Shown: positions 25,991 to 54,441 of the stretch, in pieces
Position numbering within the stretch: position 1 is the first letter of the stretch
How the letters are laid out: every line of letters starts with the position of its first letter
IMG/VR virus record: IMGVR_UViG_3300040815_002799
Location: 1-60,030 of that record
Reading direction: 5' to 3' (one strand)
Length of the DNA stretch: 60,030 bases
Origin: a virus
The notes under the pieces: model-generated
Told to the model about the DNA's origin: nothing
Seen by the model: the letters and a program-made list of their open reading frames with translations, nothing else
The model's database searches: none
Position numbers and translations under genes: made by a program

Positions 25991-26810
25991 GTTTAGATTT
26001 TCATTAAGTGAAGTTGACAAACAAATAAATGTGCCAGTAAAGTTAGATTTTGATTTTACGGGACAGGGTGATTTAATATCAATTTTCGAGAATGATATTA
26101 TAGAACAAGTAATTAACCCCATAAGGAATTTCGAAACAATAAAATTTGCACATAAAAGTGTAGAAAACGATAGTAGTATAAATTATAAATTTTATTTTTT
26201 TGATTACAGTACAAATATTCAAAATACAACTTTTTCTAATGAAAACCTTTGGACTAATTCTTACAACTCTACTTCAAACCCTGATTTTACAGGTCAAACA
26301 TTCACAGATAAAGAAATTTATTACACTGCTAATTCGTTTAGAAGAAGTTTTTTCAAACTAGATTTTTATGATTCTAAAAATACCTCAGATCAAAAAAATT
26401 ATTTCACGGTAATTTTACCGACACAACAAGGAAAAACAATAGAAAGAAATATTGGTACTGATTTGTTACCCCAAAATGTTCAAGTAAAAATTCCAAATAT
26501 GTCATTAGATTATATTGGGGATAAAGAAGGGTTTTTCATATACTTCACAGAAGATATAAACACCATTGATATAGACACCTTTTATATGTCCGTGAAGTTT
26601 TTTAATGCCAAAATTGGTGAGTTCGTAAGATTTATAAATAAACCTCAATCCTCAATATCTACAAAGTTCAATTTTAAAAAAGAAAATAACTTTTATTATA
26701 AATTAATTTTTGACTATCAAGATAAAAAATATTCAATATTTAATGAAGACGATCAAATCATAGGTACGGTTGAAAACCCCATAAATTGGTATGAATATAT
26801 TAATCCATGA
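25983..26810 (+). CDS. Unknown structural protein
   Basis: 275 residues starting at GTG 25983, which overlaps the stop of the preceding gene by 8 bases; the GTG is the best start because the reading frame then runs without gap. The protein is beta-rich with many Phe, Tyr and Asn and an opening NKFRFSLSEVDKQINVPVKLDFDF, which looks like a beta-sandwich. No cysteine clusters, signal peptide or membrane segment. It is followed by another unknown structural gene with a 4-base ATGA overlap. A tail or baseplate decoration role is inferred only from the operon. Confidence 0.6.
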   Translation: MNKFRFSLSEVDKQINVPVKLDFDFTGQGDLISIFENDIIEQVINPIRNFETIKFAHKSVENDSSINYKFYFFDYSTNIQNTTFSNENLWTNSYNSTSNPDFTGQTFTDKEIYYTANSFRRSFFKLDFYDSKNTSDQKNYFTVILPTQQGKTIERNIGTDLLPQNVQVKIPNMSLDYIGDKEGFFIYFTEDINTIDIDTFYMSVKFFNAKIGEFVRFINKPQSSISTKFNFKKENNFYYKLIFDYQDKKYSIFNEDDQIIGTVENPINWYEYINP

Positions 26811-37600: not shown

Positions 37601-40600
37601 ATGATACCTTATATGTGAATCTTCCTGAAAACCCACAAAAAGTTTATGTATTTTATGACGGAACATTCTTAAATGATTCGCAATTGAAATCCGCTTCTGA
37701 AAATATCAGATCATGGTATCAAGGTAAAGTAATTGATGATGAATTAGCACCAGATTTTCTTTATGAAGGTGTAATAGGTAACGAAGACAATAACGGTGAA
37801 AATTGGTTGTGGTTTGCATCTTACCCATATCTTGGATCATTATCTGCAGGTACAGTAAATGGTAATCAAATCAAAGCGTTTGGTGTAGATGGTGAATCCG
37901 AAATACATAGTAAATACGATGCCAGGTGGTGTTCTTCTGACGACAATGGAAAATGTGTACCAAAAACTCCATCATTCAACCTGAGTGAAACAGGGGTCAC
38001 TGTAAGTGATATATATAAAAGGGTCACGTTTGGATACCAATTAGAAGGAACTTATGGTGTAAATGATCCTAGATCAAATGGTATTCCATTTACTCCAGAA
38101 TCTGGACAGGAAGATACTTTTGAAACTGTTTATGGTAACTTCGCTGGTGAAGAGACAAATTATATTGTCATAATTGTTACTAATCAGAGTAGTGGAGAAG
38201 TGGGTCTTTACCACGGTTCTACTTCTGATGAGGGAGGAGGTTCTGCTAGAAAAAGTGATTTATATAATCATGGTTTTAGATTAGATGGTCAGGGTTGGCA
38301 AAATGAATTGACGGAACTTTCAGGTATTGGTCAATATTTTGAACCAACAGATAGATTTACACATGATTATGAAACATATTTAAAGGTTTTCGAACAAATA
38401 AAAACAAGTGGTGGTACACCTAATGTATTTGTATATCCAGTCTCTGAAGATAAAAGAGAAGTAGTTCCATTTACACAACATATTGTTGCGGCAGTAGAAG
38501 GTGGTGTAATAACTGACGGTGATTTCGAAACAAAATATGGATCTTCGATTTATAATGTTGGTATAAATAATCTAAGTTTACAGGAATTAACAGAAAATAA
38601 TCCGTATTCGGCACTTTCATTAAATCAGACTTACCTTGATCTAAATATTAGTTATCAGAAAGGTCCAGGACTCAGAAACTTTAACGTATTTGTTGATCCA
38701 AATGTTACAAATTATTCATTAACTAGTATAACTAGTAGTTTGGATAAATTGATTGATCAAGTAGGATATCAAAGTGGATACGGATTTATTTATGGGGGAA
38801 AATGTTATTATATCGATTCCCCAACAAATGCGGTCCCTACTCATGAGCCTACATCTTCAGATATAATTAGTAATATTTGTAGTTATTCAGGTTGTCCGAC
38901 TTGTATCCCACAAGGTTGTTATTCTGGAATTACGACTGGTGTTGAACATTCTTATTATGATTGTTGTAATGGAGTATTAATCACTGGAACGACCGCTGGG
39001 AACAATGTGTGTATCAACACAGCACTTCCTTATAGTGGTGTTGATGTGACAGGTCTGAATCCATGTGTCCCAGATTGTCTTTCAGGTTTTACAGTTACAA
39101 CAGCAATCACAGGAACTTGTGAAAATCCAGGTCAAGGAATTATATCAATTCAGGCAAATGGTGGTCTTCAACCATTTACAATAATACCTCAAGGACCATC
39201 ATATCCTACATTAACAGGATCACAATTATTTGATCAAATAATTATATATGAAAATTTATCACCCGGTGTATATGGATTTACGGTAAATGATTCTAGGGGA
39301 GGATCTACATTTGTGTCATTATCCGTTGATGGATGTGTGACTGTAGAAATTTCACAAGTAACAAATACGACTTGTGGATTAAATAACGGATCCTTTACAG
39401 GCCAAACAAATGGGGCTAACTTACCACTAGTAGCTCAAATCTACAAAGATGGTAATTTATTCAATACTATAGATGTAAGTAATGTTCAATTTGTAGTAAC
39501 AAATTTATCGCCAGCATCTTATGAAATAAGATTATTTGATACTTTTGAAAATTTATTAGCGGAATCTGGAACAATTACGGTAAATGATTCTAATAATATA
39601 ACCTATGACTTGATTCCATCAGGAATTCCACAATGTAACATAACGGGAGGAACTTTAACTGTTAGTAATATTATTGGGGTTCCTCCATTTACCTATTCTT
39701 CATCCAATGGAGATACGGGAACGACAAGTGATACTAGTTTTATATTAAGTGGGTTCAGTCAGGGATCACAAAGTATATCTATAACAGGATCAAATGATTG
39801 TTCTTTATTTAAAAATGTTATCTTTACAGGAATTGGATTGGTAAATCTGGTCAATCCAATTATTTCGAATAATGTTTGTCTAGAATGTGACGGTTCAATA
39901 ACATTCAGAATTACCGGTGGAACTGCTCAATATCAGACAAAATTAGATCAGGGTGACTTTATACAACAAACTGGTCATACAGATGAAAAATTATATTCGT
40001 ATACTGGTATTTGCCCTGGAAATCATACAATTACAATAAAGGATAGTTTAGGGTGTACCTCTAATGGTTACAACTTTACTGTTCAAGATACTGGTGGATT
40101 GAATGGGGTTTCAATTAGTACTACTCAACCTTCTTGTGGTAACCTAGCGAGTTTCGATATTCAAATTAGTGCTGAATTTACACAGAATCAGACATTATTT
40201 AGATTTTTTGGTATATGTAATCAAATCGGTGATAATGTCGGAACAACAGTATTCGATCAAGTATCATTCAATCCACAATATCAAATAAATAATCTTTCAC
40301 CTGGTGAATGGTCAATAACTGCTGGAACTATAAATAACACAACCGATAAGGAGTTTATTTGTCCATATAATGAGTTAATAAATGTTGAAGATATAGGTGC
40401 ACCTTTCCCATTAATACTCGAAGGGACAAATACTAGTTGTGGTCAAAATAACGGTTCGATTGTAGTTAGATTATTTAATAATTTATTCGAATTATTAAAT
40501 GGATTGATAGCGGTCCCAGTAGATTATTTTATTTACGATGAAGCGGGTAATATTATATATCAAAAAATTAATACAGGTGATGCTCAAATAACCGTAAATA

Positions 40601-43176
40601 ATTTATCATCAGGAAATTACCAAGTAAAAGTAGTTGATAATCATTCATGTGAAAAAATTGATTATATAGACATTACTAGTTCAGGTGGTGTTGCATTTAC
40701 ACTAGAGACGACAAATACAGTAAATGGTAATGATGGTACTGTAGTTGCTGTTATTACTAGTGGTCAACCCCCATTTAGTTATCTTTGGAGTGATGAATCT
40801 ACGGGTAGTGCATTGTATAATAGAAACAGAGGTGATTATTCACTTACGATTACAGATTCTAACGGATGTTCTTTAACTAGACAGACATTCTTGGAAGGGA
40901 CTACACTAATTACTTCATCGAATTCTATTTCAATATGTTCAAACATATTCAGTGTCACTTCATCTACGAAGAGATCAATAAAAGATATGTACGATGAAGG
41001 ATTCATTGATGTCACTTATGGTGATACTGGATGTACATTGACTCAGGCACAATTTACTTGTATTATAGAAATTAGTGGTCCGGTATCGATAACTGAACAA
41101 GTAACATTTTATAATAGTACAGATTTAAATGATTATCCTTCAGATAATACATGGGTATCAAATATTTCACTTCTATTAGATAATATAGATGAAATCAAAG
41201 ATTATAACATTGATCTAGTATCTAATTTAATAACAATAAACTCAAGTTGTGATGGTGATGAAGATCCTCTAAGAGGTGCTAGTTTATCGTTAGATTTGAA
41301 AATTGATTATGATACAGAATGTGAATCTGTGGCGGATATGGTACCAATCGAAATTACTCCAAATGTTACAAATACTATGACACCAACCCATACTGTAACA
41401 CCGACAGCTACAAAATTACCATTAGTGAAAGCAGTATTGGCTCAAAATTGTTGTTCAGATGAAATAATAGGTCTAAGAGTTGAATCAAACTTATTACTTG
41501 GTGATGTCGTACTTTATCAATCCAATTGTTATGAATTAATTAATAATACACAAAATGATTCATTACCATTTGTTTCGAGTGTTATTTATACATCATGTAC
41601 TCAATGTTCAGTTGTAACAACTCAGTGTGTTACACCAACAAATACTTCAACACCTTCTAATACACCTACCTTTACTGTTACACAATCGAATACACCGACG
41701 AATACTGGTTCACCTACATTGACACCAACAAATACATTGACTTATACACCTACCTTTACTGAAACACCAACATATACACCAACTAATACTCCAACAATTA
41801 CTAATACCATAACTTCAACAATTAATAGTACACCAACATTTACACCTACAAATACTGAAACACCAACATTGACGCCGACTAATTCAGTTACACCAACTAA
41901 CACGCCAACCTATACTAGTACACCTAATGATACACCATCAGTAACAACTACACCGACTAATACTCCTACAGAAACCACTACCCAAACTCCAACAATTACC
42001 GAAACAAATCAGACGACACCAACAGTCACACCTACTAATACAAATACACCAACGTTGACATTGACTAATACATTGACGCCGACTAATACTATTACTAATA
42101 CTGAGACGTTGACTGTCACGCCAACTAACACAAATACTAATACACCAACGAATACAATAACACAAAGTTTAAGTCAAACATTGACATCAACGCCGACTCT
42201 AACACCGACATTTACTATGACACCAACTGAAACCTGGCCGTTAGAGACACCAGAACCAACGGCAACATATACTCCATCTAATACTATTTCACCCACTATG
42301 ACACCTTCATTCACAAGTACGCCGACATTCACTCCAACTATCACACAAACATTAGAATATGTTGGTATCATTCTAGAGGATGGATGTTGTGACCATGGAA
42401 ATGAAAACATCTTAGTCAATATTCCGGCTGGATTGATTGTAGGAAACGATGCAATATTTATTAGTGGTTCTTGTAGAACAATTGTGAATATATCAGATGC
42501 TCCGTACACTGGTTACGAATACATAAACCCATTAGTTTCTGACTTGTATGATACTTGTACTGATTGTAATAGTGATCATACTTGTCCGACTCCGACTCCA
42601 ACTAATACTCCGACATTCACAGTCACACCTACAATTACTATGACAAATACTATTACAAATACAAATACAATAACAGAAACACCGACACACACACCAACAG
42701 AAACATATGAGTTTAATAGTCCGACACCAACACCAACAACAACGATCACACCTACCTTAACTAGAACCAACCCAATTGTCCAACCTACTCCCTTCCCTAC
42801 TCAATCACCAAACGTTGATTTAGATATTTCTGAACTTGTAGGGGGTCTTGTAAACGTATTAGATGAGAATTTGATTGGTGGTGGTGGTACATATGATGGA
42901 ACATCAGATTTCTGGCCATATTCTAATTCTAATCCGTTCTTGGTGTATATACCCTCAAATTTAACACAGACTAACAATATTTTCGAAAAAGATGGTTGGT
43001 ATTTTGAATTACAAATTGCACCATTTAACCTTAGAAATGTACCACCAGAAGTAGAAAATATTATAAATAACTTAGAATATAATACTGGACAGTCTATATC
43101 GACAAACAATCGGATACTGGATGGTGAAACTTATATTGTGTTGACTCACTTCATTGGTAGGAGAAGTTCAGATTAA
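31648..43176 (+). CDS. 3842-residue modular fibre or adhesin: Thr/Pro stalks, six-Cys modules, VWA domain, SprB-like repeats
   Basis: Largest gene in the window. Order: N-terminal beta-rich head of about 165 residues without signal peptide; Thr/Pro stalks alternating with modules of the CC ... C-aromatic ... CxxC ... C type; a VWA-like domain around residues 550-910; a classical VWA domain at about 1334-1538 with MIDAS D1346-x-S-x-S and TDG at 1451-1453; more six-Cys modules; a second copy of the first VWA-like domain at about 1975-2360; SprB-like repeats at about 2480-3083; the longest Thr/Pro stalk at about 3328-3567; a last Cys module; and a non-repetitive C-terminus (about 3718-3842). It lies right after the gpI-like tail gene and opens the surface-protein block. 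Probably a long tail fibre or adhesin. Folding in the cytoplasm is inferred from the missing signal peptide. Confidence 0.75.
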   Translation: MADTGKIRFSFLYSDVGFNNPSALIGTNTGTANSDSLGGAQVDDTIVIGNVTHSIPIGSTIDGIEIFTTLGLGGIQNGIIYTRLALGINNPPTNLIHLEAVRDPVTEITIGGPTDTLGLTGLTTQNVSSLKLRYLVTSNTGTSNLNITGSTTSGSELPSIKIYYTLPSTPTPTITETPDKTPAVTATPATTQTPAKTSTPSVTPNETATPTPTADYWTVISCCDDSEGNRPLYRIAKSSWFQPASGTYQITNDSVIPDGCYTFTIALPVNPIYLGNSEFDGSAIGPISLGCLDPGLCACPTPTPTPTFTQTPAITSTNTVTPSVSKSSEPPFATPTPTESRNYDPSTIERSLFYFRTNACDATISDPILKISGTSDDARFILGKVVTFIDNLGHNFSATILGITRPHDDAYFVQTVHKTCLEAREFIDYYDDDISNMSFRVNPCGIVEVKETLLNITLSNTNPLYPFTHFDIGDSGSCYSFNSFYNPTGDTTGSTVVNKFNSCSECKRVQPTPTPTHTSTPTLTPTFTVTQTLTKTPAVTPTMTPTEQRTTYVAVNCCNESIDINVSAPVNTKKIFVFYDGTIQDKNKLKQASNQVREWYQSYIDKYQWQTGNLYETVIGNESSDANGENWLWWSVYPYLGSLSGGTLQDGTKINEFREVISGSTFIEGSCDSTKSTFRCAPFKTQVNDFDIIHQRINRGQDLEGGTGNTVSNGVPFSHLDLNQSLNSGIGIFDGGETNYLVITFIEESDGEIGMYHGQSSREELTTEPFVLQGNGWDINNNLEPSTRFKYDYDSYLEVWNDIVNKLSGDVSNVIYSVADDQESNFSFQLHNVAAIEGRTITSEEFKLKYGDDINDVGPQNLNFESLTDTNVYNELGNTGPFVNIIKPEQQVGGPGLRNFGFYTDPTLTGWGQSTFITTVGNKVDYLDRDGFIYLGTCYKFQRQSAVTPIVTINEDDIIFNVCENGECIPKLCPSPTPSPSKTIGFTPTNTPTFTVTPTNSSTPQSTPRVTGTPLLTPPSKLLPPTHVRFRGCDFTLPSYYYPYAEWLANGSPQYIFLPGGNGYTFSNGSAVNITFPPKCMQLINTNVISGSGMYPVPDESFIRCIDCENWVADNAPTPTTTPTQTPTPSYKWITFGRCCDDVLFRFPVIQSELISLFPNSGFYYDGDCYYWKNSIDGLPGTVINYPVNDLSGSGSNPFCDSSTCSTYAPCPTSTPTPTPTLTVTVTNTSTPPVSYYKINPRSCCEQKYEFPNGLFISDTVPEGYVFVYEGSEYPSLSGKCFEAIYDPNVNPTEYVLISETETRERCEQCDEIRGESCPTPTPTPTQTITATPDICADQDIVILIDQSGSIGSQSNFDFLTDGVIEIANSLETRMDAGEVQLAAYKWSSCSIDKIELLSDLTSNHTDFVNAVDGTSWDLGFTYASKPLELAYNLLSGSTNTNARKNIILITDGVLSDFDTIPSCTELDDPIYTTSQLASLLKIGQYGNGEEVKIYTVNVINGSNSQLNSLSSGDDYQFYASSFVDFENVTSNLLVDRVCNIKPDFGDTSYWRADSCCSSKTIVVAYSGSPNSNDGFIFNGECYVISGLLSSDSVPDHTILSTDIISNACSNTELCSCGRVLYFQLENCCDPSDVITIGYTNGSPVLNSGIEYDKKCYKYDGRPGFIDDSVVILDSTVLDVCNTNGCICPSPTPTHTETPTQTVTPTHTITPTFTITNTQTITETPTYTPTNTDTPSITPTFTPTHTITNTLTPTPTLTRPTNFVIYELSGVCESTTLILFVSDNVQVGNFIEYSGKCYSVLGYSTDIPTDTLNVDNNEIYFTENQCTSKYSCVTPTPTPTNTVTQTPTIDNTPDVTPTQTQTLTATKPTVVATIQSCCSGGTTYQISVVQGSTIGQSLLYSGSCFNIISLPEGPTTGLVYYDLPYSDCTSCANANGVCPTNTPTKTPEVTLTPTFTPNLSPAVTSTPTQTKPIDAWLAKNCCDGNDTLYVNLPENPQKVYVFYDGTFLNDSQLKSASENIRSWYQGKVIDDELAPDFLYEGVIGNEDNNGENWLWFASYPYLGSLSAGTVNGNQIKAFGVDGESEIHSKYDARWCSSDDNGKCVPKTPSFNLSETGVTVSDIYKRVTFGYQLEGTYGVNDPRSNGIPFTPESGQEDTFETVYGNFAGEETNYIVIIVTNQSSGEVGLYHGSTSDEGGGSARKSDLYNHGFRLDGQGWQNELTELSGIGQYFEPTDRFTHDYETYLKVFEQIKTSGGTPNVFVYPVSEDKREVVPFTQHIVAAVEGGVITDGDFETKYGSSIYNVGINNLSLQELTENNPYSALSLNQTYLDLNISYQKGPGLRNFNVFVDPNVTNYSLTSITSSLDKLIDQVGYQSGYGFIYGGKCYYIDSPTNAVPTHEPTSSDIISNICSYSGCPTCIPQGCYSGITTGVEHSYYDCCNGVLITGTTAGNNVCINTALPYSGVDVTGLNPCVPDCLSGFTVTTAITGTCENPGQGIISIQANGGLQPFTIIPQGPSYPTLTGSQLFDQIIIYENLSPGVYGFTVNDSRGGSTFVSLSVDGCVTVEISQVTNTTCGLNNGSFTGQTNGANLPLVAQIYKDGNLFNTIDVSNVQFVVTNLSPASYEIRLFDTFENLLAESGTITVNDSNNITYDLIPSGIPQCNITGGTLTVSNIIGVPPFTYSSSNGDTGTTSDTSFILSGFSQGSQSISITGSNDCSLFKNVIFTGIGLVNLVNPIISNNVCLECDGSITFRITGGTAQYQTKLDQGDFIQQTGHTDEKLYSYTGICPGNHTITIKDSLGCTSNGYNFTVQDTGGLNGVSISTTQPSCGNLASFDIQISAEFTQNQTLFRFFGICNQIGDNVGTTVFDQVSFNPQYQINNLSPGEWSITAGTINNTTDKEFICPYNELINVEDIGAPFPLILEGTNTSCGQNNGSIVVRLFNNLFELLNGLIAVPVDYFIYDEAGNIIYQKINTGDAQITVNNLSSGNYQVKVVDNHSCEKIDYIDITSSGGVAFTLETTNTVNGNDGTVVAVITSGQPPFSYLWSDESTGSALYNRNRGDYSLTITDSNGCSLTRQTFLEGTTLITSSNSISICSNIFSVTSSTKRSIKDMYDEGFIDVTYGDTGCTLTQAQFTCIIEISGPVSITEQVTFYNSTDLNDYPSDNTWVSNISLLLDNIDEIKDYNIDLVSNLITINSSCDGDEDPLRGASLSLDLKIDYDTECESVADMVPIEITPNVTNTMTPTHTVTPTATKLPLVKAVLAQNCCSDEIIGLRVESNLLLGDVVLYQSNCYELINNTQNDSLPFVSSVIYTSCTQCSVVTTQCVTPTNTSTPSNTPTFTVTQSNTPTNTGSPTLTPTNTLTYTPTFTETPTYTPTNTPTITNTITSTINSTPTFTPTNTETPTLTPTNSVTPTNTPTYTSTPNDTPSVTTTPTNTPTETTTQTPTITETNQTTPTVTPTNTNTPTLTLTNTLTPTNTITNTETLTVTPTNTNTNTPTNTITQSLSQTLTSTPTLTPTFTMTPTETWPLETPEPTATYTPSNTISPTMTPSFTSTPTFTPTITQTLEYVGIILEDGCCDHGNENILVNIPAGLIVGNDAIFISGSCRTIVNISDAPYTGYEYINPLVSDLYDTCTDCNSDHTCPTPTPTNTPTFTVTPTITMTNTITNTNTITETPTHTPTETYEFNSPTPTPTTTITPTLTRTNPIVQPTPFPTQSPNVDLDISELVGGLVNVLDENLIGGGGTYDGTSDFWPYSNSNPFLVYIPSNLTQTNNIFEKDGWYFELQIAPFNLRNVPPEVENIINNLEYNTGQSISTNNRILDGETYIVLTHFIGRRSSD
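33299..34380 (+). other. VWA-like domain, first copy in the 3842-residue protein
   Basis: About 360 residues starting at a CC module and opening with a hydrophobic strand and acidic turn (KIFVFYDGT), followed by a helix ending in VREWY and the conserved block NGENWLW...YPYLGSLS. Later come NYLVITF with DGEIGMYHG and a final GPGLRNF. The same order recurs at 37567-38720. The strand-DGT-helix opening and a second strand followed by D-G suggest a VWA/Rossmann-like fold in which the MIDAS serines are not conserved. Fold assignment is inference; the duplication is directly visible. Confidence 0.6.
35602..35625 (+). repeat. Hexanucleotide repeat in a Thr/Pro linker
   Basis: CCTACC is repeated three times and followed by CCTACA, encoding alternating Pro-Thr. 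It is the most regular microsatellite I noticed in the linkers, lying just before the VWA domain. A unit change would keep the frame and alter stalk length by two residues. Confidence 0.85.
35647..36260 (+). other. VWA domain with an intact MIDAS-type motif
   Basis: The segment opens with DIVILIDQSGSIG, the classical VWA strand and DxSxS metal-site motif (D1346, S1348, S1350). It then has LAAYKWSS, a helix, NIILITDGVLSDF with Asp1452, and a final strand and helix. VWA domains bind protein ligands through a divalent metal. Order, spacing and length (about 200 residues) fit the family. Confidence 0.88.
37567..38720 (+). other. VWA-like domain, second copy in the 3842-residue protein
   Basis: Homologous to 33299-34380: opens KVYVFYDGT after a CC module, followed by a helix ending in IRSWYQ, NGENWLWFASYPYLGSLS, NYIVIIVTNQSSGEVGLYHG, and GPGLRNF. 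The two copies are clearly diverged at residue level, so the duplication is not recent. Confidence 0.6.
39080..40900 (+). other. Block of SprB-like repeats
   Basis: About 600 residues (about 2480-3083) in roughly seven units. The typical unit pattern is CGxNNGS-I, an 'xGxxPFxY-x-W' segment, a 'NLSxGxYxxxVxDxxGC' segment. Clear examples are TTCGLNNGS, TSCGQNNGSIVV, GQPPFSYLWSDEST, LSPGVYGFTVNDS and DYSLTITDSNGCS. This matches the SprB repeat family known from Bacteroidota surface adhesins, including the gliding adhesin of Flavobacterium. Units are beta-sandwiches of about 80-90 residues. Confidence 0.75.
41630..42350 (+). repeat. Longest Thr/Pro-rich stalk in the 3842-residue protein
   Basis: About 240 residues composed almost only of Thr, Pro, Asn, Ser and Glu, in units such as TPTNTPT, TETPTYTPTNTP and TLTPTNT. 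Third-base choice varies between units (ACA, ACT, ACG, ACC; CCA, CCT, CCG), so the repetition is kept at protein level and is not a fresh DNA expansion. Confidence 0.9.
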
Positions 43177-43191: not shown

Positions 43192-46100
43192 ATGAGTGTA
43201 TTTGGAAATAACCGTAACACAGTTTTTTTATCTGGTGTATCTACAGGATTTGTTTATAAATTTTTTGGATTAAATTACATATATCCTGGGTCAGACATTA
43301 TCACCCGTGATAGTGATATAATTGGAAAAGTTGGTCAATATTTAAGAGGGGACTTTTACATTAGTGGTTTTCCAGGTTCAATGTGGATTCGAGGATCAGA
43401 CGCATATTCTGAACCAATATTAGATGGGACAGAAAAAGTAGTTCTAGGTGAAACCTTGTTTAAAATTATATCAAAGGATGAATATGAGGAGAATGAATGG
43501 AATCAGTGGTCTTATTATTTTTCGATTGCTAGAGTTGGTAGGAGTGAAGATCCGTATAATAATATAATAAACCATAAAATTGATTATGTCACAGAATCTT
43601 TTGTATTAGATAGTATAAAAAAATTCGATCAGCCTAGAGTTATAAATCACTTGATAGATATTGACAAAGTAGTTGTTGAAAGGTTCACGGATCCTGATGA
43701 GTGTATCGCAAAATTTGTAGAAATCGGTGAGATAGTAAAAGAAAAATTTAATAATTCTTATACTGGATATTCCTATAATTATCAAATTAGATTACACACC
43801 GATGACGCCATATTAAATAATGGAGATGATCAGAATCAATATATATTAGATGGTACTGGAAACTTCCCATTGAATTTACATCCAATGGTTAGATCTAGGG
43901 AATACTATAAACCGACGGGAGGACTATTCAATTCAACGGGTGCTCATTATCAAACTCTAGTAACCCACTTTTTCGATTTTTATTTTGGTTTTGGAAATGA
44001 ATTTGCCCCATGGAGTGTTTTAGATATTGTTGGTAGTAAAGATAATGATCCTGAAATTGATATACTTGAAGAATTTTATGCTAATGTTATTATTCATGAA
44101 TTAGGACACAGTTTAGGTCTAGATCATAGCTTTACAAATATACAAGGAGGGTGGGATGATATAAATCCAACTTTGGTGCAAGATGGTATAGATAATTTAA
44201 GAAGAACGATAGGTAATAATAATTTTAAAAAACCTACATTCAAAAATGGTAATTTATTCCTAGCATATTCCGGGGAAAGTATAGGGAAATCCGCAATAAT
44301 GTCTTATAGTATTGACCCTGCACCTGGGTTTTCATGTCCTTATAATGTGAATAACTTATTGGATACTAACTATGATATTTTCTCTGGATCTAGTCTACAC
44401 CGAGATTGGCCATATAATCTACAAAAAATGGGTACAATTTTCTTGAATGCTGGACGGTCCCAAAATCACGAATATATAAGAGAAATAGACGGGGCAGGTC
44501 TTTTAGTATATTCAGGAATGAATTTAAATATCTTTAACTATATAGATGATTCTGAATTTTCTGAGGGTGAAATCACAGGATTAACATTAAATTTTACAGG
44601 GTTGACTGGTCTTGATTCTAAACTTAGACCTTCTATTGATAGGGACTATAATTTTGATCCAAATGATAATATATGGACTGATAGAATGACTTATAAAATT
44701 CAAATCTATAATGATGATATAAGTTCAGGGATTACGGTTTATGAAAAAACAACACCAGTATCACCATCACCTCCAGAACTTACAGGTATAACTCAAACAA
44801 TAAGTGTTGATATTACAGGTACAACATTGAGTGAAATTCTAAATAATATTATTGATTATACACAACTGTCAACAAATGGTATAAGAATAGAATATTTGTC
44901 TGGAATTTATGAAATTCAGCAAAATGAATTTATAGGTACAGGGGCTAATGTATTATTAGAGATTCAAGATTTAAATCTAGAAATATTAACTACTGGAGGT
45001 ACAGTAACTAGAAAGGGAAGAAAATATAATAATATTTGGACAGGTGATACAAAAGTACAAAGAGTGGGTATTGAGATTCCGACAAATACAGGGTTCACTT
45101 CATATGAAGTTAAAGGTACGGAATTCGCTTTAAAAACATGGGATAACTTCTTCCAAATAAATAAAGTTGATAGATCTTTTAATGATATCCTATATTCTAT
45201 TTATGAATTTGATGATGAAGTCAGACTAGTAATCACAAATCTAAAAACAGATGAAATCACAGACAGAGATGTGTCATTTTTCAAATTAGACGGTTATTAC
45301 ATACAAGATTTTACAACATATTATAATTCAGACTCCGATATTAATATAGTTTTACTTTATAATCTGACAACTTCTGCTCAAGACTCACATTTTGTAATTA
45401 AGTATAAAGTTTTTGATTATAAAGAAGGGCAAATTTCGAGATTTCCCGAAAAAACAGTAACAGTAATTAATGACAGTAATATTGATATAAATGCAGATCT
45501 AAGAACAATTGATTATAATAAAAATAATGAAGTAGTTTGTGGAGTCGGATTTTTTGGGGCATTTTTTATTAGTATTAATATATCTGGACTTGATAGTGAA
45601 GTTATAAGGTATAGTGAAAATGACACTAATGTAGAACTTGTACCAATTGCGATTTCTAAAGGAGGTAATAGGTATAGAAGATTCACTTTAGGTGATAGAG
45701 AATTTTATTATCATTTCGATCAAAAAAATAAATATAGAGCACCGGCTTTAGGTCTAAATTATTTTAGGGCGGCAACCACATTCACTCAAAGTGATGGTAA
45801 TGCTTTTTCTCTTTATTTATCAGATATTTTACAAAACCTCTATGATCCAGAAGATTATGATATAGTTTATGGTCCAACTTTTTCGATAATGGATCTATTC
45901 CTTTACATTTGGCCTGAAGATAATTTTGTTACTATAAATCTTATATTTTCTAATGGTGATATACTTAAAATTGATGGAAATCGACCCGATAAATTTAGTT
46001 TAGACCCGGTCAATTATTCTATTGTTAGGAATTACAATGATAAATTAAGGGGTTTAGATCCAAGATACGGAGGGATTCCGGTCAACACAAAAAAGTGGAC

Positions 46101-47916
46101 AGGATACGAAGAGTATTATACTGAAATGGGACTCGGTTATTTATATTTAAGTGGTCTAACCTCTGAATATACATATGTACTACCAAAAGAAAACGTAATA
46201 GGTCATTATACCGATAATGAAGGTGTCATACAATTACCATTCAATGTTGGTGATACTATATCAGGGGTAACATATATTAATTCAGACGATGGATTATCAT
46301 CAGGTTCAAATTATCCGGGAGATAGAAACAATTTTTATAATGATAGAAATCCAGTTGAAAATGTAGAAAAAGTATTTAGAGTAATAAGTAACTCGGATTT
46401 CAACTCTAGTCCTATAGGTCAATATTATGGGCAATATGGTATATATATACCTGTCGTAAGTGGTAGTAGTACAAATAGCAGTTTTCCTCAAGGTTCTATT
46501 GAATATGAATTCGAACAAGTACCCTATGGTACAGAATTCCCAATTGCTGAATTTACCGGTACTATAAAAATCTCTCTCATGTTCGATGTAGTTAACTACG
46601 GGTCAGATTTTGAGTTTGAGTCTTTGACTCAAGCTCAATATCATGCGGACTATTTTAGTTCAGAGCTAGAATCAATTCTTAACACTCAAGAATTTGATTT
46701 TAACTTTGAAGTTAATTATGAGATTGTGGATACAAATCATAGTTTATATTCAGTATTTCAAAATAGTTCTTCTTTGACTGAATTAATAAATTATTTTTCT
46801 AATATTGGTGGTGTACAGGCATATAATGGTAATCACTACTTATTAAGAATGTGTGGTAGTGGTACCGCACAAGTCAATGGTCAAAGCGGAGGACAAATGC
46901 AAATTCAAAACCCAATTGGAAGAGTTGGTATTATAAGCATTGTAAGTTACCCTCCAAAAATTTTAGAAACTACATTACACGAATTGGGACATGGTTTTGG
47001 TTTAAGACATTCTTTTGATCCTGTATGGGGTTCGGTTTTTGATGATCTTGATACGGATTATTTGGATCCAGGAGGAAATTTTCCGGCTGAGATGCAAGGA
47101 CAACAATGTTGTGGATTTGGAAATCAAATTACACCATATTCTGATGAATATACAGGTGATGACAGTAAAAGTTTAAGTATAATGTCCTATGGAAAATTTC
47201 TTGTAGACGAATTTTCCAGTCCTGTAAATTCAGGATTAATTCTTCAAAATTCCAAATTTATTTGGGATAATTATAGCAATACCGAAGAATATCAACAATA
47301 CTATAAATATACCTTTTTGATAGGTGACTGTAATGTTTTTTATCATAAATTTTTAAATGATAACGAAATCACGGAATCTAATAATTTATCTAGTATAAAA
47401 TTGACGTTTAGAACACCTCAATTTATATCTGGTATTGAAAACGAAATTTTATTATCTAATTCAGGAGGTACAAAAACCATCCAAGTTGTTGGTCCAAATG
47501 AACCTACGACTGATACCGTTCAAACTATTATAATTTCGGGTAGTTCGTTGCAATCAGTCTTTGAAATAACAAACCAGGAATCATTTGGTGTAAAGTTAAC
47601 AAGGAGTGCAACGACTGGACAACTATGGATCATTGAAAAAGAAGAGCTTAAAATAGAATTTATATTAGAAGATGGGACTTCATTTACACGTTTACCTGAT
47701 GATTGTTTTACTATTAGTAGAAATGAAGAAATAATTAGGAATTATGTGACAACAGATGAATCCACACGTAATTTACTCACATATTACGCCGAACAAGAAA
47801 ATCCTTCAGTTTTCTACTTAACGTCTAAAATTAGAAAAATTATGGGGTATAATTCATATGAAAGATCTCTAATTAATAAACATATTAATTATAAAATACA
47901 AAACTATTTGATATGA
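43192..47916 (+). CDS. 1574-residue virion protein with two metzincin-type metalloprotease domains
   Basis: The protein is two diverged copies of one unit. Each has a short domain with the pattern L-SG-x-[TS]-x-x-[YF]-x-Y (SGVSTGFVYKF near residue 14; LSGLTSEYTYVL near 985), a metzincin domain, and a C-terminal beta-sandwich. Unit 1 has HELGHSLGLDH (His302, Glu303, His306, His312) and Met-turn IMSYS (Met370). Unit 2 has HELGHGFGLRH (His1263, Glu1264, His1267, His1273) and IMSYG (Met1331). Both therefore keep the three zinc histidines, the catalytic Glu, the Gly and the Met-turn, and should be active zinc proteases. No signal peptide or Thr/Pro stalk. Upstream is the giant fibre gene; downstream, with a 4-base overlap, a small gene. 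It probably cuts host surface proteins as part of the fibre apparatus (inference). Confidence 0.85.
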   Translation: MSVFGNNRNTVFLSGVSTGFVYKFFGLNYIYPGSDIITRDSDIIGKVGQYLRGDFYISGFPGSMWIRGSDAYSEPILDGTEKVVLGETLFKIISKDEYEENEWNQWSYYFSIARVGRSEDPYNNIINHKIDYVTESFVLDSIKKFDQPRVINHLIDIDKVVVERFTDPDECIAKFVEIGEIVKEKFNNSYTGYSYNYQIRLHTDDAILNNGDDQNQYILDGTGNFPLNLHPMVRSREYYKPTGGLFNSTGAHYQTLVTHFFDFYFGFGNEFAPWSVLDIVGSKDNDPEIDILEEFYANVIIHELGHSLGLDHSFTNIQGGWDDINPTLVQDGIDNLRRTIGNNNFKKPTFKNGNLFLAYSGESIGKSAIMSYSIDPAPGFSCPYNVNNLLDTNYDIFSGSSLHRDWPYNLQKMGTIFLNAGRSQNHEYIREIDGAGLLVYSGMNLNIFNYIDDSEFSEGEITGLTLNFTGLTGLDSKLRPSIDRDYNFDPNDNIWTDRMTYKIQIYNDDISSGITVYEKTTPVSPSPPELTGITQTISVDITGTTLSEILNNIIDYTQLSTNGIRIEYLSGIYEIQQNEFIGTGANVLLEIQDLNLEILTTGGTVTRKGRKYNNIWTGDTKVQRVGIEIPTNTGFTSYEVKGTEFALKTWDNFFQINKVDRSFNDILYSIYEFDDEVRLVITNLKTDEITDRDVSFFKLDGYYIQDFTTYYNSDSDINIVLLYNLTTSAQDSHFVIKYKVFDYKEGQISRFPEKTVTVINDSNIDINADLRTIDYNKNNEVVCGVGFFGAFFISINISGLDSEVIRYSENDTNVELVPIAISKGGNRYRRFTLGDREFYYHFDQKNKYRAPALGLNYFRAATTFTQSDGNAFSLYLSDILQNLYDPEDYDIVYGPTFSIMDLFLYIWPEDNFVTINLIFSNGDILKIDGNRPDKFSLDPVNYSIVRNYNDKLRGLDPRYGGIPVNTKKWTGYEEYYTEMGLGYLYLSGLTSEYTYVLPKENVIGHYTDNEGVIQLPFNVGDTISGVTYINSDDGLSSGSNYPGDRNNFYNDRNPVENVEKVFRVISNSDFNSSPIGQYYGQYGIYIPVVSGSSTNSSFPQGSIEYEFEQVPYGTEFPIAEFTGTIKISLMFDVVNYGSDFEFESLTQAQYHADYFSSELESILNTQEFDFNFEVNYEIVDTNHSLYSVFQNSSSLTELINYFSNIGGVQAYNGNHYLLRMCGSGTAQVNGQSGGQMQIQNPIGRVGIISIVSYPPKILETTLHELGHGFGLRHSFDPVWGSVFDDLDTDYLDPGGNFPAEMQGQQCCGFGNQITPYSDEYTGDDSKSLSIMSYGKFLVDEFSSPVNSGLILQNSKFIWDNYSNTEEYQQYYKYTFLIGDCNVFYHKFLNDNEITESNNLSSIKLTFRTPQFISGIENEILLSNSGGTKTIQVVGPNEPTTDTVQTIIISGSSLQSVFEITNQESFGVKLTRSATTGQLWIIEKEELKIEFILEDGTSFTRLPDDCFTISRNEEIIRNYVTTDESTRNLLTYYAEQENPSVFYLTSKIRKIMGYNSYERSLINKHINYKIQNYLI
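44095..44127 (+). other. Metzincin zinc site, unit 1
   Basis: Encodes HELGHSLGLDH, a full HExxHxxGxxH motif, preceded by a hydrophobic helix (YANVII). The Met-turn codon is at 44299-44301 (AIMSYS), 67 codons after the last His, within the usual range. Confidence 0.92.
46978..47010 (+). other. Metzincin zinc site, unit 2
   Basis: Encodes HELGHGFGLRH, again a full HExxHxxGxxH motif. The Met-turn codon is at 47182-47184 (IMSYG), 57 codons after the last His. Confidence 0.92.
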
Positions 47917-48248
47917 TAGAAATTATAACAAATAATTTATCCGAAGGTAAAACTACAGGGAGAAGTAAATACGATTCTCAATCAGATGGTGCAGGTACAT
48001 TTCTATTTAATGGAAAAAGTACTAAAGCACAATTTAAAAATAAAACAAAAAATGGGAGAAATTTTATTTTGGTTAATCAGTTTGACAAAAAAAATTCATC
48101 TTTTATTGTTTACGAAGACGATACATTTATAGGTGTTATAGATGGTGCAACCTATTTGTCTAGGTATGGACTCACACAGGAATCACAACCACCTCCACCT
48201 GACAATGATTATTTAAATTTTAAATGTGACACAATTTATATACCATAA
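47913..48248 (+). CDS. Small unknown protein between fibre genes
   Basis: 111 residues. The ATG overlaps the stop of the two-metzincin gene by 4 bases. The first 90 residues are basic and beta-like (GAGTFLFNGKSTKAQFKNKTKNGRNFILVNQF), followed by a SQPPPPDND linker and a short end. The Pro tract resembles RQPPPP in the 1948-residue protein. No family recognised. It may be an adaptor or assembly partner of the neighbouring fibre proteins. Confidence 0.6.
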   Translation: MIEIITNNLSEGKTTGRSKYDSQSDGAGTFLFNGKSTKAQFKNKTKNGRNFILVNQFDKKNSSFIVYEDDTFIGVIDGATYLSRYGLTQESQPPPPDNDYLNFKCDTIYIP

Positions 48249-48261
48249 AAAAAAACAAATA

Positions 48262-48269
48262 TATTTATA
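48262..48269 (+). promoter_or_regulatory. TATTTATA motif 4 bases before the small gene at 48274
   Basis: TATTTATA followed by AAAA and ATG (48274). Same sequence and spacing as at 31648. Confidence 0.4.
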
Positions 48270-48273
48270 AAAA

Positions 48274-48591
48274 ATGATCATTATAGAAAGAAACTTATCA
48301 ACAATTAAATTTGAAATTTCGGATTCTAATTCAGGAACGGTTAGATTAAATAACCAATTATATACTGGATCAGACCTTAAATATAAGGTTTTAAATGTTT
48401 CAGGTAACGTAATTAAAAAGTATGAAGTCGCAAATCTAAAATTTAGTATTATGAATAATAAAGTTTTTGGTAAAAGTATTTATAATCATGTATTCAAAGG
48501 TGCTATAGGAGAAACTTTGAAATACAGTATACCGGAGATAAATAATGACTTTCTTAATGGAATGATTAACATTTGTGGACACGAACACTAA
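48274..48591 (+). CDS. Small unknown protein before the 1948-residue fibre gene
   Basis: 105 residues, beta-rich, with an opening MIIIERNLSTIKFEISDSNSGTVRLNNQL that suggests a small beta-sandwich, and an end INICGHEH with a Cys and two His. No signal or membrane segment. Not recognised. Its stop lies 3 bases before the next gene's ATG. By position it may be a small attachment or assembly protein for the fibres. Confidence 0.6.
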   Translation: MIIIERNLSTIKFEISDSNSGTVRLNNQLYTGSDLKYKVLNVSGNVIKKYEVANLKFSIMNNKVFGKSIYNHVFKGAIGETLKYSIPEINNDFLNGMINICGHEH

Positions 48592-48594
48592 AGT

Positions 48595-51500
48595 ATGGCT
48601 CAAGTAATCATCAGATTAACAATAGGTTCAAACGCGACGGGACCATTTAGTATTTATAGTGGTTCTACACTAGATGAACCAATTTTAACTGGTGCTACAA
48701 GATTTGATCTTCAAAAAGGAGAAGTGTTTGAATTACCTGGAAGTGTTAATGGTACTGAATATAATATTACAGTAGTTGATACTTTTGATAAAAATAAATC
48801 TGAACAAGTAACAAAAAAAGTTGTAGTTTATGACGATGAAGAAGAAAATCAAAGAATAAGTAGAACCAATCCTGATCTTACACCGACCCCAACAATTCTA
48901 TATGATTATGATTTATATCTTTTTAAGAAATGTAATTCAGAATTAAACAGTACTGAATCTAAATTTTTCAATATAAAAAGAATATTCGGTAATACTGATT
49001 TTATTCAATATGAAAATGAATGTTATTATAAAGAGGTAGGGCCACTCAAGGCAAATCTAAATCATCCGCTGATTGATGATAAGTTTTTTGATAGTTGCGA
49101 GTTATGTTATGTTGATCTAGCTAAGGAATTCGAAAAGAACAGACAACCACCTCCACCTATTATATATGGTGTCACTGCACTAAATTGTTGTAACGATCAA
49201 CTAGGACATGGGCAAAGTCAAATAGCTAATTTTAATGTGAATTTTTCAGCACTTTTCCCAAACGGTATACCGATTCTTAGTCAACCGGGTCCAGCACCTC
49301 AAATAAATCTAAATTATATATTTAGTTATACCAATCAATTAGGTACATCTTGCTGGAGAATTATACAAACATATAATTTTAATTGGGCTAATGTTCCTTT
49401 GGTAAATTCACCATTTTATAAAAAATGTTCGTGGTGTTTGGGACTGAATGGATGTCAAGGAGTATTTAGGGCAATTCCATGTGAGGAAGGGTGTGGTAGA
49501 GAGTTGATAGTCACAATAAATCCAAATTTACTCCAATATATCCCTAATACTACAAATTTAGCTTCAGGAAATAATATTTTTGTTTACGAAGATATTTGCT
49601 ATGATATAGTAGAGGCTTTAAATGTATCACCTACTAGTGATGTATTAGATGTTAATAATCTATATATAACAGGATCCAAATGTTCGGCATGTGTAAGTCA
49701 ATATCCTTGTGATCTTTGGACTTATAAATTATTGAATGTATGCTGTCAAAGTACCTATATAGAAAATCCACAAGTAATTTATGTTACTGGATTCTACGGA
49801 TTAAGTCTTGGAAATTCATTTTATTATGCTGGCTATTGTTGGAGAATCATAGGTATAATCGAAGAAGAATTAGATTACCCATTCATAGGTAATGAGCCAT
49901 ATGTTGATTGTGATGACTGTTTGGAAAATGCTCCATATTATATTGAGAGTCATGGTCAAAGTGTAATATGTCCAACACCAACGGCTACAAGTACCCCTTC
50001 ACCGACCTCGGTAACGCCGACACCAACAAAAACACCGCAAGTGACACCTACATTAACTAAGACTTCACAACTAACACCAACACCCACTAAAACCAAAATC
50101 AGATGTTTACTCAGAAATTGTTGTTCAATTGCACAAACTATATTAGATATTGAGTATTCAAATAACGGTTATCCAAGTGTAAATGATGTAATTCCATATG
50201 ATAACAATTGTTGGAAAATAATTCAAGTTGACTACTCATTTACTACTGGAGGTGTTGCATCAGTTTTCGTTCCACTATCACTAGTATTCCAAGGTGATAC
50301 TGCATGTAATAATTGTGTCACTGCTGGTGGTAGTACTTTTGAATGTAATTCTAGTTTCTTTTTGGGATGTAATACAGGAATATATTACGATTTATTTACT
50401 TTAAGTTCTCCTGAATTTGAAGTTGGTCAAACATATGCCTTCAATCTGGACAATGGATTGGATGATGAGGTTTGTTATACCAATGTTCTTGTTGATCCCG
50501 CACAGATATCATATGAAAATATAACTATAGCATTTTTAGAAGAAGATAATATTACATTAATAGAATGTGATGATGAACAATGTGAAATAATTCAACCAAC
50601 TCCAGGACCTACTACTACTCCGACACCCACAGTTCTTTACAAAAGAATAAGAGCTAAAAAATGTTGTGGAGAGCAACCCAATAATCTTTTTGTGATGAAT
50701 ATCCCGGTTGAAACTGTAATCGATGTTGGTGACGTGTTGACAGTTTCACTTTTTGGACCTACAGTCTGTTTTGAATTAATTTCTTTTATCAGTCAAGGTT
50801 CGGGATGGCAAGTAGATATCATAGAAGTTTATTATGATAATGGTACTGGAATGGCATGTCCAGAATGTAGTTGTAATGCTGATCCAGATTGTACAGATCC
50901 TACATTTGCATGTACTCCAGGACCTACTTCAACACCGGCGTTCACACCTACAAATACACCAACTTCAGTAACCCCAACACCCACTAAAACTCAAACCCCA
51001 ACTCCAGAGTTTAAAAAGGTAATCATTGAGCCATGTTGTGATTTTCCAATAGTTTTAAAAGCTTGGATTTGGGTTCCTATTTCTGCTCAATTGAATCAAG
51101 CCTTCCAATACTATCACCCCTTCTTGGATGGATTATTAGCTTGTTTTAAAATAACTGAAATTGTAACAGAAAATACAAATTTGGTAGGTATACCAAACTT
51201 TATAGGGACTAATCAAATTAACTTTACTGATTGTGACGATTGTTTGGAATTTAGTCCTTGTCCTTCAACACCAACTCCGACCTCTACAACTACACCTACA
51301 CCAACACCGACCTTGACTATAGATTATATAACTTTCTCTGAACCACCGGTGGGTGCCGCGGGATGTCCGCCTTGTCCTGGATCAAATTGTAATTTATTCC
51401 CACAAAATTTACCATACATAGATGTTGTTGGTAGAGGAAGTAATTGTTGTACACATTACAATGTGAGAACCAGAATTTTTTATCTATTTGATGTACCCAA

Positions 51501-54441
51501 TAGAATTAACGATATCGATCCTATAACCGCAACTGTTCCTTACGGTGAAAAGACATACTTTGATAATGAAATGAGTATTGAGGAATGGAGTACCTTGATA
51601 AGTTTTATAGGTTCAAATTACATTTACCATACCGAAAATAATTTTATCACCGATGATAGCGTAATACAACCATTAGTTAAAATTGCACCCTTACCATTTA
51701 TACCAATTTATGCTCCTGATGATCTAACATACGAACAATCGGTTGATAAAGTTAATAGTCATCCTCAATATAATTCTTGGATTTATTATATAAATCAACC
51801 TACAAATAACACGCTTGAATTATTTAGTGAACTTTCACAAGTTGCGGCTGACATTACTTGGGGATTAGGACCATATAACCCCCAGACACATACTAGATCG
51901 ATTGATCCAATTACTAAGAAAAGATATGGAAATAATTTACCTGCGGGTCTCTTGAGAGTAAGTGGTCAATTATCATCATATAACAACTTAGAAAATTGGA
52001 AGTTGGGTGGGGAACAATGGTTAAACACCCAGGATATGCCATGGGGTAACATTACAGAGAATATCGATTTATATGATGAATATGAATTAGATTTGATTTG
52101 TTTAGATGAGGATGTTGATGATAGATATAACCCTAGAAAAGTCAAAAAATTAGTCATAATTATTCAAGATCCTGATTCCTATCAGGGTAATGCATTAACT
52201 TGGGGTCCAAATACTCACCTAACAAATGATCAGGGTAATTATTTTGGTGATAATAGGGTAAATGATCCACTGTTTACATGGTTCCAGACAAGATTTATAG
52301 TCGAAGGAATGAAATCGCCACATGCCGGAACTTTAGGAAATGCACTTTCACCTGAATTAGGTATAGAAAATATTGATGACATCCCAGTCGAAAATAACTA
52401 TTCTCCTGTTCATCATACTGAAATTATCGCCATTGGTATAGGTGATGGTGCCGATTGGGAACATTTAGAGGATCTGGCTTCATATAAAGATTTTGTACAT
52501 AAAGTCCCAGATATTAATTTACTCAATGACCAACAATACGTTGAGGAACTCAATTGTAAAATTAGTGAGAATCTATGTCAAAAACAAAGATATGGTTGGT
52601 TATGGTTAAGTGGATTGACAACAGGATTTATTTATGAATTCCACCCTCAGACACTATTTTATAATAACTACACAAATTCGCAACAAGAAGGTCCACTTGG
52701 GTATTTCACAATTGGAGATATAGTTTCAGGTACTACATATTTGAGAAGAAGAGGTGAGGTACCAAATTATACTAGATGTACAAATTTCCCCTGTGGAGAC
52801 GTATTAGATGACTATTTAAATGGATTGACTCTTAATAATACTTTGATACCAAATTGGGAGACAAAATTCAAAGTAATTAGTTATGATGAAGCGACTGAGA
52901 ATGGTAAATACAATTATCACGATTACTGGAGAATTCAACCATTGAGACCTCAAAATTCAAATGAAAAAATACTCTATAATTTTGTAAAGTTATATGAGTA
53001 TGGATACGATTGTGACACTCCAGGATGTAAATATGATGTTAATCCACCTACACTTCCAATCCCAGGTGGTGCTGATGATCCTGAAGTCTACCAAACATTT
53101 GAAGGTGTGATAAAAGTTAGAATTGATTTTTCAAATGAAATGTTGAATTACACTTCATATGAAAATTTGTTAATAGTTGGTGCTGAATGTGGTGAACTTT
53201 TAATTGAATCGTTCGAGAACACAAACGAACTGGATGGAATTACAATAGAATACGACATTTTTGTACATGATACTGATCAACTTGATGGTTTGGATAGATT
53301 CCAGTACCATGCTTGGTTAGACAACACTTATGGAAGTATTATTAATAGTGGTTATCATAAAGGTTGTATATTTACAACTGCTGGAGCACCAGGAGCACTT
53401 GGAATAGCTAATTTACCAGGTTATACTGCACAAATGTGTGTTGCTAATTCAGGATTTTTTAATCTTTCATACATAGACTTTATTTTCGTACATGAAATGG
53501 GTCATACGTTCTCTTCACATCATACTTTTATTTGTAATAGATGGCAAAAATTATTCCCTGAATTAGAAAAAGACACATTAGATAATGTTCTTCCATTTAA
53601 TTCTAATTCAACTTGTTTAGAGTGTGGAGATTATCAACCATATTACGATGAAAACGATGGTGCGGCACCATTTATGTCTTATTTAAATTTCAGAAGGACT
53701 ATGTGTGGATCAGTTAAAAATACATACGGTCCGATAGACGAAGACTTCATACCCACAACAAGAGAAAAATATCTTGTATCGACAAGTTTGAGTAATTCAA
53801 TGATAAATGACTTTGTTTTTGATCCTGTTTGGAATCAAAATTATTCAGAGATAGTAGGATATGATAAAAAAATTAATATAAGTTATTTCAAATTTTTAGA
53901 TAATGATGAACTCACATTTAATGATCCAGTATTAGAAAGTATTTCTATTTCTTTCTCATTAATAGGTAACTCGAATGGTAATAGTAATGATTTTACAAAT
54001 TTATCAGTAAAAGTGATAAATGGTATTGGAGGTATTTATGAATTCTATACTAAAGGACCAAATGACTTACAAAGTGGTGTCATAAATGATGTTACAATTA
54101 CAATTAATAATACTAACTCACCTTTCTTGAGTTTATTTGATTACGGTGACCAAGAAAATTTTGGAGTTAGATTTGAATTACAACAACTAGATCAGACTAA
54201 TAATAATTGGACATTTATTATTAGAAATTTGAATTTAAAGTTTGATTTTGCTGATGGTTCATCTATAGTTAGTAGAAAACCAAAAGATTATTATCACATT
54301 TTAAGTGATTCTACTGGGGACTATCCAATGAAAGTGACTGATGCTATAATAAGTACATCTAATAAATTCACAAGTTATGAAGGAAGTGTAATGAGATTCT
54401 GGATAGATATGTGTAAAAATTATTTTACTAATTTAAATTAA
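48595..54441 (+). CDS. 1948-residue modular fibre protein: Cys modules, Thr/Pro linkers, VWA-like domain, C-terminal metzincin
   Basis: Starts with an 80-residue beta-rich domain (MAQVIIRLTIGSNATGPF ... VVVYDDEE) shared with the next gene. Then come about seven cysteine modules (CC, C-aromatic, CxxC pattern), separated in the second half by Thr/Pro linkers; a VWA-like domain at about residues 945-1330, ending TEIIAIGIGDGADWEHLEDLA, with IFYLFDVPN in place of the DxSxS motif; an LSGLTTGFIYEF module; and a metzincin domain with HEMGHTFSSHH (His1633, Glu1634, His1637, His1643) and Met-turn FMSYL (Met1694). The last part is a beta-sandwich homologous to those in the 1574-residue protein. The usual metzincin Gly is Ser, but ligands and Glu are kept. 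No signal peptide. It joins the two architectures seen separately in the neighbouring genes. Confidence 0.8.
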   Translation: MAQVIIRLTIGSNATGPFSIYSGSTLDEPILTGATRFDLQKGEVFELPGSVNGTEYNITVVDTFDKNKSEQVTKKVVVYDDEEENQRISRTNPDLTPTPTILYDYDLYLFKKCNSELNSTESKFFNIKRIFGNTDFIQYENECYYKEVGPLKANLNHPLIDDKFFDSCELCYVDLAKEFEKNRQPPPPIIYGVTALNCCNDQLGHGQSQIANFNVNFSALFPNGIPILSQPGPAPQINLNYIFSYTNQLGTSCWRIIQTYNFNWANVPLVNSPFYKKCSWCLGLNGCQGVFRAIPCEEGCGRELIVTINPNLLQYIPNTTNLASGNNIFVYEDICYDIVEALNVSPTSDVLDVNNLYITGSKCSACVSQYPCDLWTYKLLNVCCQSTYIENPQVIYVTGFYGLSLGNSFYYAGYCWRIIGIIEEELDYPFIGNEPYVDCDDCLENAPYYIESHGQSVICPTPTATSTPSPTSVTPTPTKTPQVTPTLTKTSQLTPTPTKTKIRCLLRNCCSIAQTILDIEYSNNGYPSVNDVIPYDNNCWKIIQVDYSFTTGGVASVFVPLSLVFQGDTACNNCVTAGGSTFECNSSFFLGCNTGIYYDLFTLSSPEFEVGQTYAFNLDNGLDDEVCYTNVLVDPAQISYENITIAFLEEDNITLIECDDEQCEIIQPTPGPTTTPTPTVLYKRIRAKKCCGEQPNNLFVMNIPVETVIDVGDVLTVSLFGPTVCFELISFISQGSGWQVDIIEVYYDNGTGMACPECSCNADPDCTDPTFACTPGPTSTPAFTPTNTPTSVTPTPTKTQTPTPEFKKVIIEPCCDFPIVLKAWIWVPISAQLNQAFQYYHPFLDGLLACFKITEIVTENTNLVGIPNFIGTNQINFTDCDDCLEFSPCPSTPTPTSTTTPTPTPTLTIDYITFSEPPVGAAGCPPCPGSNCNLFPQNLPYIDVVGRGSNCCTHYNVRTRIFYLFDVPNRINDIDPITATVPYGEKTYFDNEMSIEEWSTLISFIGSNYIYHTENNFITDDSVIQPLVKIAPLPFIPIYAPDDLTYEQSVDKVNSHPQYNSWIYYINQPTNNTLELFSELSQVAADITWGLGPYNPQTHTRSIDPITKKRYGNNLPAGLLRVSGQLSSYNNLENWKLGGEQWLNTQDMPWGNITENIDLYDEYELDLICLDEDVDDRYNPRKVKKLVIIIQDPDSYQGNALTWGPNTHLTNDQGNYFGDNRVNDPLFTWFQTRFIVEGMKSPHAGTLGNALSPELGIENIDDIPVENNYSPVHHTEIIAIGIGDGADWEHLEDLASYKDFVHKVPDINLLNDQQYVEELNCKISENLCQKQRYGWLWLSGLTTGFIYEFHPQTLFYNNYTNSQQEGPLGYFTIGDIVSGTTYLRRRGEVPNYTRCTNFPCGDVLDDYLNGLTLNNTLIPNWETKFKVISYDEATENGKYNYHDYWRIQPLRPQNSNEKILYNFVKLYEYGYDCDTPGCKYDVNPPTLPIPGGADDPEVYQTFEGVIKVRIDFSNEMLNYTSYENLLIVGAECGELLIESFENTNELDGITIEYDIFVHDTDQLDGLDRFQYHAWLDNTYGSIINSGYHKGCIFTTAGAPGALGIANLPGYTAQMCVANSGFFNLSYIDFIFVHEMGHTFSSHHTFICNRWQKLFPELEKDTLDNVLPFNSNSTCLECGDYQPYYDENDGAAPFMSYLNFRRTMCGSVKNTYGPIDEDFIPTTREKYLVSTSLSNSMINDFVFDPVWNQNYSEIVGYDKKINISYFKFLDNDELTFNDPVLESISISFSLIGNSNGNSNDFTNLSVKVINGIGGIYEFYTKGPNDLQSGVINDVTITINNTNSPFLSLFDYGDQENFGVRFELQQLDQTNNNWTFIIRNLNLKFDFADGSSIVSRKPKDYYHILSDSTGDYPMKVTDAIISTSNKFTSYEGSVMRFWIDMCKNYFTNLN
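51430..52580 (+). other. VWA-like domain in the 1948-residue protein, MIDAS not conserved
   Basis: Begins after a CC module with the strand RIFYLFDVPN and ends with KKLVIIIQDPD and HHTEIIAIGIGDGADWEHLEDLA..FVHKVPD, the usual 'xAIGxG ... L..LA' closing strand and helix of VWA domains. Ser/Thr of the MIDAS motif are absent, so metal binding is unlikely. Confidence 0.6.
53491..53523 (+). other. Metzincin zinc site, third copy
   Basis: Encodes HEMGHTFSSHH: HExxH and the third His at the right distance, with Ser instead of Gly at the eighth position. The Met-turn codon is at 53674-53676 (PFMSYL). Confidence 0.85.

Follow-up and report, generated by a model that had tools for sequence, protein, structure and literature searches.

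Why would a tailed phage carry three metzincin-type zinc motifs in two neighbouring giant genes, and what would the encoded domains cut? Phage tail enzymes known so far mostly cut polysaccharide or peptidoglycan. The window analysed here is a viral genome fragment of 60,030 nt, the full IMG/VR record IMGVR_UViG_3300040815_002799. A sequence-only reading had noted the motifs, each followed by a Met-turn, in fibre-type genes, and had proposed that the phage cleaves a host surface protein. Our answer is tentative: an uncultured contractile-tailed phage lineage may arm its tail proteins with metzincins as protein depolymerases, which would cut host surface protein at entry.

Among the replication and nucleotide genes, the window encodes an SSB-like protein, a UvsX-like recombinase, an exonuclease, a DnaB-like helicase, and a ribonucleotide reductase. 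T4-type baseplate genes lie upstream of both protease genes, with conserved genes in between, up to position 31606. Four giant genes follow, encoding proteins of 3842, 1574, and 1948 aa and a last product whose gene is open at the window end. The relevant features are as follows.

16258..18586, + strand: gp25-like and gp6-like baseplate wedge genes (PHROG matches)
26807..27757, + strand: conserved baseplate-region gene; its homologue in contig L128 carries an inserted M43 metzincin
31648..43176, + strand: TPT-rich protein with a VWA domain, 3842 aa, adjoining the 1574-aa gene upstream
43192..47916, + strand: 1574-aa gene encoding modules A and B, without TPT linkers and without anchor; in sister phage G051 the orthologue has 1510 aa
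43642..44340, + strand: metzincin domain A, aa 151-383 (leave-one-out profile 4.5e-10)
44095-44127: HELGHSLGLDH of A, aa 302-312; MSY at 44299-44307
46129..46542, + strand: N-terminal flank of module B (blastp to module C, entire module, 2e-9)
46543..47223, + strand: metzincin domain B, aa 1118-1344 (Reprolysin_5 above cut-off)
46978-47010: HELGHGFGLRH of B, aa 1263-1273; MSY at 47182-47190
47224..47913, + strand: C-terminal flank of module B (blastp to module C)
47913..48248, + strand: small gene, 111 aa, start overlapping the stop of the 1574-aa gene (44% identity in G051)
48274..48591, + strand: small gene, 105 aa (42% identity in G051)
48595..54441, + strand: 1948-aa gene with anchor, Cys-rich/TPT stalk, and C-terminal module C; G051 orthologue of 1960 aa, 48% identity
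48595..48834, + strand: N-terminal anchor (~80 aa) of the 1948-aa protein, common to gene 54483 and to proteins of G027, G040, and G039
52588..53088, + strand: N-terminal flank of module C (left-out profile 8.6e-6)
53089..53715, + strand: metzincin domain C, aa 1499-1707 of 1948 (left-out profile 2.5e-12; Reprolysin_3 below cut-off)
53491-53523: HEMGHTFSSHH of C, aa 1633-1643 of 1948; MSY at 53674-53682
53716..54438, + strand: C-terminal flank of module C (left-out profile 3.8e-6)

The closest isolates by full-length gp6, at 26-27% identity, are a 484-kb phage, Immutovirus Flavobacterium phages, and Microcystis phage Mel-JY01, one gene of which is annotated as prolyl 4-hydroxylase. Relatives of gp6 are encoded on at least 599 viral-contig stretches, so the lineage is common though uncultured. 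The sister phage G051 (contig IMGVR_UViG_3300014775_001776, 104,710 nt), found by a zinc-motif scan, has a gp6 that is 91% identical and the same gene order. G051 carries tail sheath and baseplate hub genes, which indicates a contractile tail for the phage. The G051 sheath protein (L232:13956-17114) is 1052 aa long, and its sheath homology is confined to the last quarter.

Three of the four giant genes (31648-60029; 84, 20, and 71 TPT) encode alternating TPT linkers and Cys-rich units. The VWA domain of the 3842-aa protein (PF00092, 3e-13, DQSGS motif) occupies aa 1340-1529, nt 35665-36234. For aa 946-1330 of the 1948-aa protein, a von Willebrand-like identity found no support. The 111-aa and 105-aa genes between the protease genes gave no match in a Pfam search.

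All three zinc motifs lie in open reading frames, where the sequence-only reading had placed them, and an MSY Met-turn follows 57 (A), 57 (B), and 50 (C) residues past the third His. MSY is present in all six metzincin domains of the window phage and G051. Residue shuffles rule out a chance origin: the window proteins (19,426 aa) contain HExxHxxxxxH three times versus 0.002 expected, and the same pattern plus Met-turn three times versus 0.000 expected. The clan motif of metzincins has Gly or Asn at the turn position, HExxHxx(G/N)xx(H/D) (PMC11674741). As a correction, the full HExxHxxGxxH holds for A and B but not for C, which has Ser at this position; the orthologue of C in G051 keeps Gly (HEMGHTFGLHH).

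In Pfam, the 1574-aa protein matches Reprolysin_5 above cut-off (9e-10), and the 1948-aa protein matches Reprolysin_3 slightly below cut-off (4.5e-4); at E up to 0.1, Reprolysin_5 is matched by all six domains of both phages. When a six-domain profile is compared with the PDB, metzincins rank top, weakly (E 0.003-0.012); trimerelysin II is matched over 64 profile positions, and most others over the motif only. Supported by these comparisons and by conservation in G051, the original identification stands, and A, B, and C are almost certainly metzincin domains.

The family within the clan is less sharply indicated. The full-length M12B profile scores above cut-off for the 1574-aa protein, chiefly through domain B, and below it for C. 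The M43 profile (PF05572, cut-off 23 bits) stays below cut-off for the 1574-aa protein, with 22.1 bits, and 18.2 in a genome search. Against profiles of eight metzincin groups, similarity is limited to the motif, except for 87 columns shared with an M12B-like bacterial set. The sequences lean to M12B, without assignment to one family. The distance from the third His to the Met (51-58 positions) is nearer that of pappalysins and astacins than that of adamalysins and matrixins.

Profile comparison shows that A, B, and C are mutually homologous well beyond the motif. When each domain is left out of the profile in turn, C is recovered over ~195 residues, A over ~180, and B (1.5e-6) over 75, with E-values that refer to a small sequence set. 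The flanks are common to B and C, as seen both with blastp and with the profiles from which C was left out, and the similarity of the A flanks to those of B and C is marginal (0.076 and 0.94). Domain and flank homology together therefore argue for a composite module present three times, with the flanks of A as the weak point. Each copy would consist of a metzincin zinc protease of ~210-235 aa set between an N-terminal and a C-terminal flanking domain, and the copies are spread over two neighbouring proteins of the tail-fibre region. The copy in the 1948-aa protein would sit at the distal tip of a long stalk of Cys-rich units and TPT linkers.

The modules are conserved in G051. The 1510-aa and 1960-aa orthologues share 33% and 48% identity with the window proteins, and the metzincin domains A, B, and C share 38, 41, and 55%. 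The checked His, Glu, His, His, Met, and Tyr residues are identical at 18 of 18 positions, for which the chance at domain-average identity is ~4e-7 (0.384^6 x 0.405^6 x 0.553^6). This points to selection for catalysis, and the domains are in our estimate quite likely active. Each domain is nearer its G051 counterpart than its own neighbour domains, so the triplication predates the split of the window phage and G051.

Directly after its TPT fibre genes, G051 encodes a GlcNAc glycosyltransferase (PF11397, 7e-69) and an HtrL_YibB and GT2 protein (88572-91568; L236:8572-11568). The Thr/Pro-rich linkers may be glycosylated and mucin-like.

AlphaFold models of modules B and C, built from six-row alignments, have a mean pLDDT of 45-47, too weak to place the three His. 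They show helices over HExxH and a long helix before it. A fold search with both models returns ADAM10, TACE, ADAM8, and adamalysin-type structures at low TM-scores, with unrelated matches alongside, a result only consistent with a metzincin fold. A fold search against viral structures gave no usable match.

Are the proteases part of the virion? A fibre protein would be expected to be encoded downstream of the baseplate genes and to have an attachment domain in common with fibre-type proteins of relatives. The 1948-aa protein has both features, its start domain of ~80 aa recurring in the next gene and in same-locus proteins of the sister phages G027, G040, and G039; the 1574-aa protein has the position only. 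In our estimate, the 1948-aa protein is very probably in the virion and the 1574-aa protein probably so. No metzincin is detected in G027, G040, or G039, and in G027 an anchor protein comes after the 3842-aa homologue without a 1574-aa gene in between. The proteases are therefore lineage-specific cargo, and the locus is variable. Few of the sister contigs extend this far, most being short, and absence of a metzincin is informative for those few only. A Pfam search of the fibre-type proteins of G027 and G040 gave no match, so no exchanged enzyme can be named.

A separate insertion in the baseplate region, together with position and shared anchor, supports the earlier placement of the metzincins in fibre-type genes. 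In L128, a 26.9-kb contig of the same phage group, the homologue of the window gene at 26807-27757 is 853 aa long; residues 8-41, 156-299, and ~705-849 of this protein match residues 10-43, 46-188, and ~214-359 of 360-aa sister proteins, and the gap is filled by an M43 pappalysin domain (PF05572, 4e-13) and a TPT linker. Here a metzincin has been inserted in frame into a conserved protein of the baseplate region, by independent acquisition. On the 323-kb viral contig L200, positions 1098-4891 hold two tandem M43 pappalysin and TPT genes, with FN3 shown in one. Together, the L128 and L200 genes show that metzincins have entered phage proteins of the TPT type on more than one occasion.

We propose that the tail displays the modules as active zinc endopeptidases. 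On contact, they would cut a proteinaceous host surface layer (an adhesin, S-layer, or matrix protein), and the cut would let the tail reach its receptor, much as polysaccharide depolymerases do for capsules. If the domains are active in the virion, host surface protein is the favoured substrate, by a modest preference. The entire chain, in which incorporation, activity, and substrate are all inferred, is a plausible proposal that we put at slightly less than an even chance. Against it stand the missing Gly of C, the missing anchor of the 1574-aa protein, and the weak AlphaFold models.

Could the proteases instead have the giant proteins of the phage itself as substrate, processing the fibres at assembly or release as self-cleaving chaperone domains in some tailspikes do? 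The protease domains do lie inside fibre genes, that of the 1948-aa protein at the C-terminal end, and these genes are very long. However, the sisters with the same type of stalk and anchor have no detectable metzincin, which indicates that a metzincin is unnecessary for fibre assembly, and three copies seem more than processing needs. We consider such self-processing unlikely.

It is likewise improbable that the 1574-aa protein has no part in the tail and works as a free enzyme, either inside the host cell or after release by lysis. Its lack of anchor and TPT linkers would fit such a role, as would the gene order of G027, where the 3842-aa homologue and the anchor protein have no counterpart of it between them. 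However, the gene sits between two fibre-type genes, in an order that is the same in G051, its modules are paralogous to that of the 1948-aa protein, and hydropathy of the first 50 residues reveals no obvious signal peptide. That the metzincin folds serve binding without catalysis, as the loss of the turn Gly from domain C could suggest, is quite improbable, since none of the six domains has lost a zinc ligand, the catalytic Glu, or the Met-turn, at domain identities of 38-55%.

If tail display and cleavage of host surface protein are borne out, tail-fibre metzincins would reveal a phage route through a protein coat, be it S-layer, adhesins, or matrix. Protein coats as enzymatically opened phage barriers would become testable, and these metzincins would supply proteases that selection has fitted to bacterial surface proteins.

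The sequence-only reading had also called metzincins unusual in phage fibres. This is borne out for isolates and the literature: the modules have no relative in 50,697 phage records, where a search relaxed to E up to 10 added only one match, without meaning, and the open-licence papers searched contain no report of metzincins in phage fibres. It does not extend to uncultured viral contigs, where genes with a metzincin motif are common. Scans of such contigs for the modules found G051 as the only sister phage. A GTDB genome scan with domain B found nothing, a result of little weight because the scan patterns missed the zinc motif. In a GTDB zinc-motif scan, similarity to bacterial metzincins is, among the matches listed, mostly confined to the motif. 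Metzincins are known, and so are enzyme-bearing tail fibres; their combination was not found before within isolate phages and searchable papers.

With the metzincin clan (M12B reprolysin/adamalysin, M10 matrixin, M43 pappalysin, M12A astacin), the window domains share HExxHxxGxxH in A and B and the Met-turn in all three, and their profile similarity to M12B and M10 members is weak; unlike known metzincins, they sit in phage fibre-type proteins. L128 belongs to the same phage group and also has a metzincin and TPT linker in a tail-region gene, but its domain is a true M43 by Pfam, single, and in another carrier gene. The phage-derived Mtz/Tim pair of Listeria monocytogenes includes a metzincin with an extended zinc motif and Met-turn; this enzyme is secreted, has a signal peptide, and affects cell wall and lysis (PMC8235301). 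Both systems are phage-linked metzincins, but the Listeria enzyme is not a tail protein. For the archaeal tailed virus HFTV1, the possibility that a tail part degrades the protein S-layer has been raised, from weak fold similarity to a serine protease and without a metzincin (PMC12494034). Degradation of a protein layer by a tail part (tail fibre or baseplate in HFTV1) is thus considered for both viruses, from weak similarity to a serine protease in one and with a metzincin in the other. As in depolymerase tail fibres and tailspikes, an enzyme on the tail would open a surface barrier, but those enzymes cut polysaccharide, whereas that of the window phage would be a protease.
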